Origin: an uncultured Lachnoclostridium sp.
GTDB lineage: Bacteria; Bacillota; Clostridia; Lachnospirales; Lachnospiraceae
Assembly: GCA_946499505.1 (NCBI GenBank)
Contig: CAMMSL010000001.1
Coordinates: 1 to 64,000 of the forward strand
DNA: 64,000 nt
Direction of reading: 5' to 3'
Part shown: piece by piece, positions 12,613 through 14,292 of the stretch
How the letters are laid out: every line of letters starts with the position of its first letter
Position numbering within the stretch: the stretch's first letter is position 1
Program-made: the position numbers and the translations under genes
The notes under the pieces: model-generated
What the model was told of the DNA's origin: nothing
What the model saw: only the letters and a program-made list of their open reading frames with translations
Databases searched by the model: none

Positions 12613-13407
12613 CTACAGTAAATATCTGTAAACAAGTCTTTCTATCGTTCTGGTGTTCAGGACAATTTTCCCTGTCTCAAATGTAAGTATCAGACGCTCT
12701 CCAGGATAAATGCCATTTCCTTCATATGCCTGTATTTTTCTTACTGCATTCTGCGCATATACCGGGTCATCCATTCTGCCGTCATGTTCCCAGTAAATTT
12801 CCTGTTTTGTCTTTCTGGAAAGGAAAGTGAAATCCGGATGAACTGTGCCAAAACGTTCTAAATGCAAGGGACATTCATATTTGTATATAATTCCGTTCCG
12901 GTAAAAATAGTCCGCAAGGATTTTTTCTGATTTTGAGCGCACGCGCTCCCCCTTCTCGGTTAATATAACAGGCATATCTTCCTGAAATTCTTTTCTCTTG
13001 TAATCCTCAGCAGCCCACTTGCTCAATTGCCGTTCCCAGACAGGTTCAACCGGCTTAATCAGCTTTTGTCTTTCAGGATGTTCAGCCAGGAAAATTTTTT
13101 CAATTTCTTCCTCGTCATAATCTTTTGTAATTCTTCTGATCTGGGACAACCTTTTTTCAGCAAGTTTCATTATCTTTTCATCGTAAGATTTCTGTGCAAG
13201 CCTGTACGCCAGTTTCTCCTTCTCTTTCGGAAGATATTCCCCGTTTTTTCTCCCTCCCGGCACGCAGTAATAATACTGAACACATTTGTTACTGCTGGAC
13301 AGACGCAGCTTCCCCTGCGGAGCATCTTTCAATTGTTCTGAAGTCTTCTGAATTATCTTCTCCAGTCTGTCCTGCTCCTGTAATAACATCTCTCTAAGAC
13401 CTGCCAT
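12613..13407 (-). CDS. Putative PD-(D/E)XK nuclease-fold protein
   Basis: The 264-residue protein has a coiled-coil-prone N-terminal half (about 1-110, rich in Lys, Glu and Gln). The C-terminal part has RSKSEKILADYF (about 155), then VHPDFTFL and EIYWEHDG (about 195-215), an arrangement that fits a PD-(D/E)XK nuclease core (E, D, E-x-H). Substrate and role are unknown. An AAAGGAAA site precedes the ATG. It is monocistronic by its surroundings, and the five-unit dyad array (13519-13764) lies 112 bp upstream of its start. Confidence 0.65.
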   Translation of the reverse strand: MAGLREMLLQEQDRLEKIIQKTSEQLKDAPQGKLRLSSSNKCVQYYYCVPGGRKNGEYLPKEKEKLAYRLAQKSYDEKIMKLAEKRLSQIRRITKDYDEEEIEKIFLAEHPERQKLIKPVEPVWERQLSKWAAEDYKRKEFQEDMPVILTEKGERVRSKSEKILADYFYRNGIIYKYECPLHLERFGTVHPDFTFLSRKTKQEIYWEHDGRMDDPVYAQNAVRKIQAYEGNGIYPGERLILTFETGKIVLNTRTIERLVYRYLL

Positions 13408-13518
13408 ATGATTTTCCTTTCTTTTCTGTATAAAACATGTCTGAAACGACAGACACTCCTGTTATAGAGTAACTTGAAAGTAACTTGGAATAATAATTTC
13501 TGGAATTTATACTGATTT

Positions 13519-13764
13519 ACGGTTATGAATTGCTTTATAGACTGTAAAACCGTAGTCTTTTCTTGTCTTATACGGTTAAATCAGGATTTTTAGTATCCGA
13601 ACCGTATCCTCGTCACGATTCTTACGGTTAAATTTGGAGTTTCTGATATCTAAACCGTACTCCTACCACGATCCTTACGGTTGAAATTCGACTTTCTAGT
13701 ATCTGAACCGTACTCTCGCCAGGATTTTTACGGTTAAGAATTGTTTTTTTGGTTATAGAACCGT
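13519..13764. repeat. Five-unit array of ACGGTT...AACCGT dyads, 52-53 bp period
   Basis: Five copies of ACGGTT-N(22-23)-AACCGT start at 13519, 13572, 13624, 13677 and 13730. All ten half-sites are identical, whereas the sequence inside the dyads varies. The 18-bp spacers between dyads are also related in four units (for example ATCCTCGTCACGATTCTT and ACTCCTACCACGATCCTT). The period equals five helical turns, so all dyads face the same side. The array fills the gap between the rpsI terminator and the nuclease-like gene. No coding sequence is seen in 13408-13899. Confidence 0.85.
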
Positions 13765-13899: not shown

Positions 13900-14292
13900 T
13901 TAACGTTTTGAGAACTGCGGAGCTCTACGAGCTGCTTTGAGACCGTATTTCTTACGCTCTTTCATTCTCGGGTCACGAGTCAGGAATCCTGCGCTCTTGA
14001 GTACCGGTCTGTAATCAGCGTCTGCCTCAAGGAGTGCTCTTGCGATACCGTGACGGATTGCTCCAGCCTGTCCTGTGTAACCGCCGCCTTTAACGTTTAC
14101 GATCACATCGAATTTGTCTGTTGTGCCTGTAGCCACGAGCGGCTGGCGAACAACAACTTTCAGTGTCTCAAGTCCGAGATACTCGTCGATGTCTCTTTTA
14201 TTGATTGTAATCTTACCTGTTCCAGGTACAAGATATACTCTTGCTACTGATTTTTTTCTTCTTCCTGTTCCGTAGTATTTTGCGTTAGCCAC
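13900..14292 (-). CDS. rpsI: 30S ribosomal protein S9
   Basis: S9 is a small-subunit protein whose basic C-terminal tail reaches the P-site tRNA. The 130-residue protein has the typical [15 protein letters not shown] start, [20 protein letters not shown] in the middle, and ends [17 protein letters not shown]. An AAAGGAGG site precedes the start. It follows rplM by 26 bp, the usual pairing. Confidence 0.99.

Follow-up and report, generated by a model that had tools for sequence, protein, structure and literature searches.

The 64,000 nucleotides from an uncultured Lachnoclostridium sp. (Lachnospiraceae) analyzed here, positions 1 to 64,000 of contig CAMMSL010000001.1 and hereafter the window, contain a tandem array of five inverted-repeat dyads immediately upstream of a gene for a 264-amino-acid (aa) PD-(D/E)XK-type nuclease. 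We assign a probability of about 0.7 to the explanation that the adjacent nuclease binds such an array as its cognate platform, with dispersal as an element resembling the repetitive extragenic palindromic (REP) sequences and REP-associated tyrosine transposases (RAYTs). The analysis directly demonstrates the linkage of arrays to nuclease genes, the geometry of the dyads, a ladder of spacings between them, the change of half-site from one nuclease subfamily to another, three dispersed motifs, an insertion-deletion difference of whole units, the modeled fold of the nuclease, and its invariant active-site-type residues.

Arrays are concentrated on the upstream side of nuclease genes. Homologues of the nuclease (E ≤ 1e-10, C-terminal-only matches included) occur in 122 of the 397 Lachnospiraceae genomes sampled. 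The matches listed provided 158 loci, nearly all from Lachnospiraceae, of which 140 were retained after removal of identical proteins and of proteins shorter than 200 aa; loci with too little upstream sequence were dropped from the fractions, leaving 125 for the tandem-array count and 128 for the dyad count. Of the 125 loci, 77 have a tandem array with a period of 40 to 110 bp in the upstream 1 kb, as opposed to 16 of 134 downstream. At least three dyads (inverted hexamers at a fixed distance, within 900 bp) occur upstream at 62 of 128 loci and downstream at 17 of 136, and in 2 of 128 dinucleotide-shuffled upstream regions; these family statistics treat related loci as independent. About half of the nuclease loci have no array by the tests used. 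The distal flanks of nuclease loci contain at least three dyads in 6 of 129 cases, five of them with the motif of that same locus. Among 220 evenly stepped 900-bp tiles of one carrier genome (G282), seven have at least three dyads: five are poly-A/T, and two are arrays of GTACCC, which is the half-site of the second nuclease in this same genome. The median distance from the end of the array to the nuclease start codon is 111 bp, which is also the gap in the window.

The array pattern is present in the genomes of relatives and is not unique to one strain, and the nuclease gene, which the initial annotation of the window had missed, accompanies the arrays there. Twenty-seven relatives come from named genomes (L035 to L061; Mediterraneibacter, Blautia, Fimimorpha, Fusibacillus, Murdochiella, and others). 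The upstream 1 kb of 19 of them contains three or more ACGGTT/AACCGT half-sites, and two or more exact dyads are present at 14. Of the eight others, three (L051, L057, and L058) bear tandem dyads of a different sequence (GCCGAAC..GTTCGGC; CCAGCCAGGGT), two (L050 and L054) bear tandem arrays of 53-bp period with no established dyad, and at the last three (L053, L056, and L061) no tandem array was found. Of 58 Mediterraneibacter genomes, 15 contain the array pattern, 16 the nuclease, and 14 both (P = 1.7e-10), such that the pattern is present in 14 of 16 nuclease-bearing genomes versus 1 of 42 others. In three of the 14 (G308, G795, and G802), the listed array match is on a different contig from the nuclease. 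Two nuclease-bearing genomes lack a match to the ACGGTT pattern: three half-sites remain close to the gene in G800 (L290), and in G817, whose nuclease is 66% identical, TTCGGC sites flank both sides (L292). One genome (G803) has a single array match and no nuclease. In the draw from the whole family, 10 genomes have a listed nuclease match of 60% identity or more, and 7 of these contain the pattern, versus 2 of 387 others.

At 19 of 142 loci tested, similar DNA flanks the nuclease on either side at a distance of up to 1.5 kb, in direct orientation at 16, and in L036, L038, L051, L147, L179, and others this DNA is the array. The nuclease is followed by a second array in direct orientation at both L038 (= L284) and L036 (= L282), and at the former locus the array-adjacent leader sequence also stands beside the downstream array. 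Broken copies of the nuclease (L078/L089 in G028:C11 and L079/L086 in G347:C4) still have a tandem array upstream, the unit sequences beside the G347 copy being the same as those beside an intact gene in G028:C34.

Half-site identity tracks nuclease identity (Mantel test, 0 of 999 permutations), declining from 1.0 in the closest nuclease pairs to 0.43, the background level, below 30% N-terminal identity. This correlation could not separate the N-terminal from the C-terminal domain as the reader of the half-site.

The window array consists of five exact ACGGTT-N22/23-AACCGT dyads at positions 13519 to 13764 with a period of 52 to 53 bp (Table 1); the coordinates and the ten identical half-sites given in the initial annotation are exact. 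Start-to-start distances between dyads are 53, 52, 53, and 53 bp, and each of the four linkers is 18 bp. Pairwise identity ranges from 22 to 73% among interiors and from 39 to 72% among linkers. The hexamer has 30 copies in the window on either strand, 10 of which are within the 246-bp array, and the 3.08-Mb genome contains seven ACGGTT/AACCGT dyads (N20-24) in total, five of them in this array, with no dyads of a reversed control pattern. A thymine precedes all five left half-sites and an adenine follows four of the five right half-sites, and the window half-site is closer to TACGGTT/AACCGTA.

Table 1. Features of the array locus, numbered from the first base of the window
Feature	Position	Strand	Description
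Dyad 1	13519..13553	.	Nuclease-proximal terminal unit; ACGGTT-N23-AACCGT
Dyad 2	13572..13605	.	ACGGTT-N22-AACCGT
Dyad 3	13624..13658	.	ACGGTT-N23-AACCGT
Dyad 4	13677..13711	.	ACGGTT-N23-AACCGT
Dyad 5	13730..13764	.	rpsI-side terminal unit; ACGGTT-N23-AACCGT
Leader	13408..13518	-	Between array and nuclease start; array-adjacent stretch similar in relatives
Nuclease gene	12613..13407	-	264-aa stand-alone PD-(D/E)XK-type nuclease; array companion; no Pfam/NCBIfam family
rpsI	13900..14292	-	Ribosomal protein S9; upstream neighbor; array sits in rpsI-nuclease gap

The interior of dyad 1 is present at 12 of the 13 relatives' loci searched (window included), and units resembling dyad 5 are listed in G814, G827, G802, and G813. 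Both terminal units have counterparts in other species, and the middle units differ in number and sequence, a pattern as though growth occurs from inside. A promoter scan of the leader was at chance level.

Selection on the half-sites, as originally proposed, is upheld by the wider clade: 19 of 20 clade loci, the window included, yield 105 units, of which 54 are exact and 31 have one mismatch, in a search that tolerated up to 3 mismatches in the 12 half-site bases, a near-match limit that favors conserved half-sites. Drift like that of the variable spacers is not seen in the half-sites. The accompanying view that the intervening sequence has drifted holds for the variability of interiors and linkers but not throughout, since AAA or TTT lies near the dyad center in 99 of the 105 units (mean of 37.5 and maximum of 52 in 200 runs with shuffled interiors). 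The same feature is found in 138 of 161 units of the dispersed arrays retrieved and, across all subfamilies, in 261 of 393 dyads versus 126 after one shuffle. An A-tract in every subfamily was rejected, several subfamilies being without it.

The sequence of the half-site varies by subfamily, whereas the width of the dyad is nearly constant even where the period changes. When hexamer distances of 14 to 70 bp were searched without a width filter, the best hexamer pair was 25 to 36 bp apart, start to start, in 51 of 62 upstream arrays. Arrays outside this range were mostly short-period arrays read in an alternative register, and among arrays with periods above 56 bp, 22 of 26 have hexamers 25 to 36 bp apart. 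A half-site was obtained for 70 loci, and the 67 with half-sites 26 to 35 bp apart, as the alignment required, share a conserved block 13 to 19 bp from the dyad center, a position partly imposed by this filter.

Distances between successive dyads in 77 arrays from these 70 loci are confined largely to discrete classes of 51 to 54 bp (152 distances), 61 to 65 bp (50), 70 to 75 bp (54), 83 to 86 bp (16), and 94 bp (5), with none at 55 to 60, 66 to 69, 76 to 82, or 87 to 93 bp. The other distances tabulated are 25 to 26 bp (10, all from the L166 array) and 105 to 126 bp (14); those of 130 bp or more were left out. Dyad spacing is a ladder of helical turns, with steps of about 10.2 to 10.5 bp and rungs at about five to nine turns, and the five turns of the window array are one rung. 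The ladder extends across many different half-sites, and the helical phasing first noted in the window is thereby a property of the family. For 85 periods from Tandem Repeats Finder (TRF), a pitch of 10.5 bp gives a Rayleigh vector of 0.80, the best-fitting pitch overall being 10.2 to 10.3 bp; for the 37 TRF periods above 56 bp, the vector at 10.5 bp is 0.68 (P of about 4e-8 under an assumption of independence that related loci do not satisfy). TRF periods of 43, 56, 57, and 90 bp are off the ladder, as are the 111- to 112-bp spacings of one G282 array and a single 49-bp spacing in G347. Rungs can be mixed within one array (83 and 73 bp in L202, 51 and 63 bp in L159, and 94 and 74 bp in L194). 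At L166, a palindromic CAGGCCTG array downstream of the nuclease has a spacing of about 26 bp and a TRF unit of 52 bp, equal to the usual rung.

Several genomes contain many dyads. ACGGTT dyads number 58 in G388, 52 in G347, and 38 in G028, and TTACGTGT dyads number 41 in G282 (control pattern, 1), whose two nucleases each have their own dispersed motif. From the matches listed, 45 arrays were retrieved with their surroundings, four of them beside a nuclease copy. Forty of the 45 are intergenic, overlapping open reading frames (ORFs) by less than 20%, a condition true of 10% of random intervals. The adjoining genes are convergent at 16 arrays, codirectional at 18, divergent at 8, and of undetermined orientation at 3. 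The possibility that dispersed arrays are relics beside lost nuclease genes was rejected because several of the intergenic gaps are too short. All 41 TTACGTGT dyads of G282 contig C1 (L257 to L268 and L296 to L315) lie between 1.08 and 2.82 Mb. A dyad-free region of about 1.12 Mb is centered near 0.52 Mb, and GC skew, taken at 20 places, switches from negative to positive in the interval 0.43 to 0.58 Mb; this gap around the putative origin, a post hoc observation, could be due to chance or to origin avoidance. Another dispersed repeat, about 75 bp long (L113:3761-3836) and without evident relation to the dyads, occurs at more than 20 places in G028.

Arrays differ by whole units and turn over between relatives. 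Comparison of 17 regions of G347 with 15 of G028 identified nine common array sites, one of which is the nuclease site, and the number of sites often differs. In one pair of arrays, exactly two units (104 bp) are present in one member and absent from the other, the DNA being nearly identical otherwise. The G028 counterparts of two G347 arrays were located: at the first, the array is absent from G028 along with other sequence, and at the second, about five units in G347 correspond to one degenerate unit in G028. The insertion of a new array is not among the changes demonstrated.

The 264-aa protein has no Pfam match at E 0.001 (three weak matches up to E 10, none of them a transposase), and no NCBIfam family is assigned to it. 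A structure model of its C-terminal part aligns with PD-(D/E)XK nucleases with modest fold scores, and active-site-type residues are invariant; by the modeled core fold and the conserved, presumably catalytic, acidic residues, it belongs to the PD-(D/E)XK superfamily. Fold comparison of the N-terminal half returned coiled-coil-like matches only (prefoldin, Rad50, and the like) and is little informative, and the single match of a PDB sequence search (E 0.81) was taken as chance. The best PADLOC match covers only positions 1061 to 1216 of PDC-S68, a 1,221-aa phage-defense candidate, and identity with the whole of PDC-S68 (~1,200 aa) was rejected on this basis. Reading frames of 1,218 to 1,269 aa in other genomes of the phylum (L247, L248, and L250) share the C-terminal nuclease domain and are possibly PDC-S68 defense candidates.

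Among the nearest-neighbor genes of nuclease loci, 167 of 246 are singletons, and no second gene is common to the loci. The largest cluster of neighbors is an rpsI-type protein, upstream of the nuclease at 12 loci including the window, indicating that the location after rpsI is old and probably vertically inherited. A host regulator of rpsI was rejected, since the arrays follow the nuclease to other places and the motif changes with the nuclease.

For binding, dimerization, operator function, cleavage, and spread, we infer the following course. A nuclease dimer would occupy one 34- to 38-bp dyad, with one half-site on either side of its center. The dimer would have an N-terminal coiled coil plus a beta-hairpin as its likely half-site reader. 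The center of the dyad, often an A-tract, is probably bent. Near-integral helical turns between dyads would align the dimers on one face of the DNA, where they could pair with each other or with another array, in keeping with the cooperative protein binding that was suggested at the outset. The array beside the gene is probably also the operator for expression of its own nuclease. An enzyme requiring several stacked sites before cutting would be safe for its host, and breaks in an array repaired against other units are a plausible source of whole-unit gain and loss. Nuclease and array together may be a selfish or domesticated element, REP-RAYT-like in its way of life.

The alternative with the most claim to attention, although we consider it unlikely, is that the array is solely an operator, the autoregulatory switch of a toxic or defense nuclease, with dispersed arrays serving as titration sites (sponges) or a regulon and with no cutting or spread. 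The upstream bias and the 111-bp median distance to the start codon would be expected of an operator, as would the similarity across species of the nuclease-proximal unit and adjoining leader, and PADLOC matches to PDC-S68 in all 19 members of A1 (window included) fit a role in defense. Arrays, however, flank genes in all orientations, and the 16 of 45 between convergent genes have no promoter there to act on. Moreover, pure binding has no need of invariant active-site-type residues, and the size of the array differs between sister species. An unrelated chromosome-organizing protein might instead bind the arrays, with the nuclease merely traveling along. Helical phasing is typical of nucleoprotein platforms, and the arrays are dispersed, mostly intergenic, and absent around the putative origin of G282. 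We regard this as improbable: the half-site changes with the nuclease subfamily, a single host factor would not explain the two motifs of G282, and no second gene is common to the loci among nearest neighbors.

Other explanations fare worse. Every unit is an inverted repeat, and the array is directly 5' of the nuclease gene, such that a transcribed array could supply functional hairpins (a guide, attenuator, or processing signal), but a functional RNA hairpin, a possibility raised by the initial annotation, is very improbable: folding z-scores are -1.33 and -1.52, little better than shuffles (18 of 200 as good), the single Rfam match is below its own family's threshold, the half-sites are identical rather than compensating, and helical spacing has no obvious meaning for RNA. 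Still harder to sustain is a neutral tandem repeat arising by local duplication and lying near the gene by chance. Slippage would give whole-unit differences between relatives such as those observed, but not constant half-sites with diverging interiors, the resemblance in dyad geometry and the single ladder of spacings among unrelated motifs, or the co-occurrence of array and nuclease, and the tiles of the carrier genome with at least three dyads were poly-A/T or its own cognate motif. A CRISPR array was rejected on anatomy, in agreement with the initial annotation, the constant part being two 6- to 7-bp half-sites and the intervening segments being related to one another; no Cas family was matched among the eight window proteins scanned (three without a family). 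Phage or plasmid origin was rejected on searches of phage and plasmid collections, which gave no match to the array DNA at E 1e-5, and of viral contigs, among which no nuclease relative was confirmed with two peptide patterns and the array pattern occurred once each in 4 of 2.9 million.

The preferred reading, that each array is the binding platform of its nuclease, can be extended, more tentatively and at somewhat less than even odds, to a large Lachnospiraceae family of single-gene chromosomal elements, each a nuclease with a helical-register dyad "address." Acting only on stacked or paired arrays, such an enzyme would break, enlarge, and copy arrays without harm elsewhere in the genome, each lineage would have a private half-site code, and the REP-RAYT way of life would have been invented twice, independently. 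If so, these genomes hold a natural collection of long-site nucleases, the specificity of each being legible in the adjoining DNA. The arrays tie a nuclease family for which neither Pfam nor NCBIfam has a model to a DNA code readable beside many of its genes, and the ladder of spacings provides a natural experiment in helical phasing. Should the nucleases cut or pair arrays, they would represent a new route to dispersed repeats in bacterial genomes and possibly new tools with long recognition sites.

The initial annotation matched the array to no named element, which stands within the literature searches made: the titles and opening parts of abstracts of open-licence PubMed Central papers yielded no nuclease-linked phased dyad arrays, and this large family, found in gut bacteria, is apparently undescribed. 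Unlike the EDxHD/Vsr-like homing endonuclease I-Bth0305I, the nuclease shows no sign of an intron, intein, or phage context, and its presumed site is a repeated dyad adjoining the intact gene itself. Tn7, in which TnsA acts with TnsB and its arrays of end sites, differs in that no partner gene recurs at the nuclease loci, where the dyads would be bound by the nuclease itself. Plasmid iterons and phased operator arrays are similar in placing helically phased tandem sites beside the gene of a presumed binding protein, but an iteron is a direct repeat of about 20 bp that serves a replication initiator, whereas the arrays are widely spaced dyads beside a nuclease gene and are dispersed on the chromosome.

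The closest resemblance is to REP-RAYT systems (REPtrons). The portions of the literature drawn on here describe REPs and REPINs as short inverted repeats, mostly intergenic and often arrayed, that flank the gene of a dedicated DNA-processing enzyme and have dispersed copies (PMC3733652, PMC2817692, PMC3116915). The nuclease arrays are likewise mostly intergenic inverted repeats with an adjoining enzyme gene and dispersed copies, reaching 38 to 58 dyads per genome in four carriers; the window's genome has only 7, with 5 in one array. In contrast to the HUH/Y1 tyrosine transposase of RAYTs, the enzyme is of the PD-(D/E)XK type, and the tight hairpin of a REP is replaced by dyads with about 20 to 26 bp between half-sites and with spacing set in helical turns. 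REPs bear a GTAG or CGTC tag, whereas the half-sites of the nuclease arrays differ by subfamily and have no common tag. The resemblance to REP-RAYT concerns the way of life; in enzyme and in repeat anatomy, the nuclease and its array fall outside that group.
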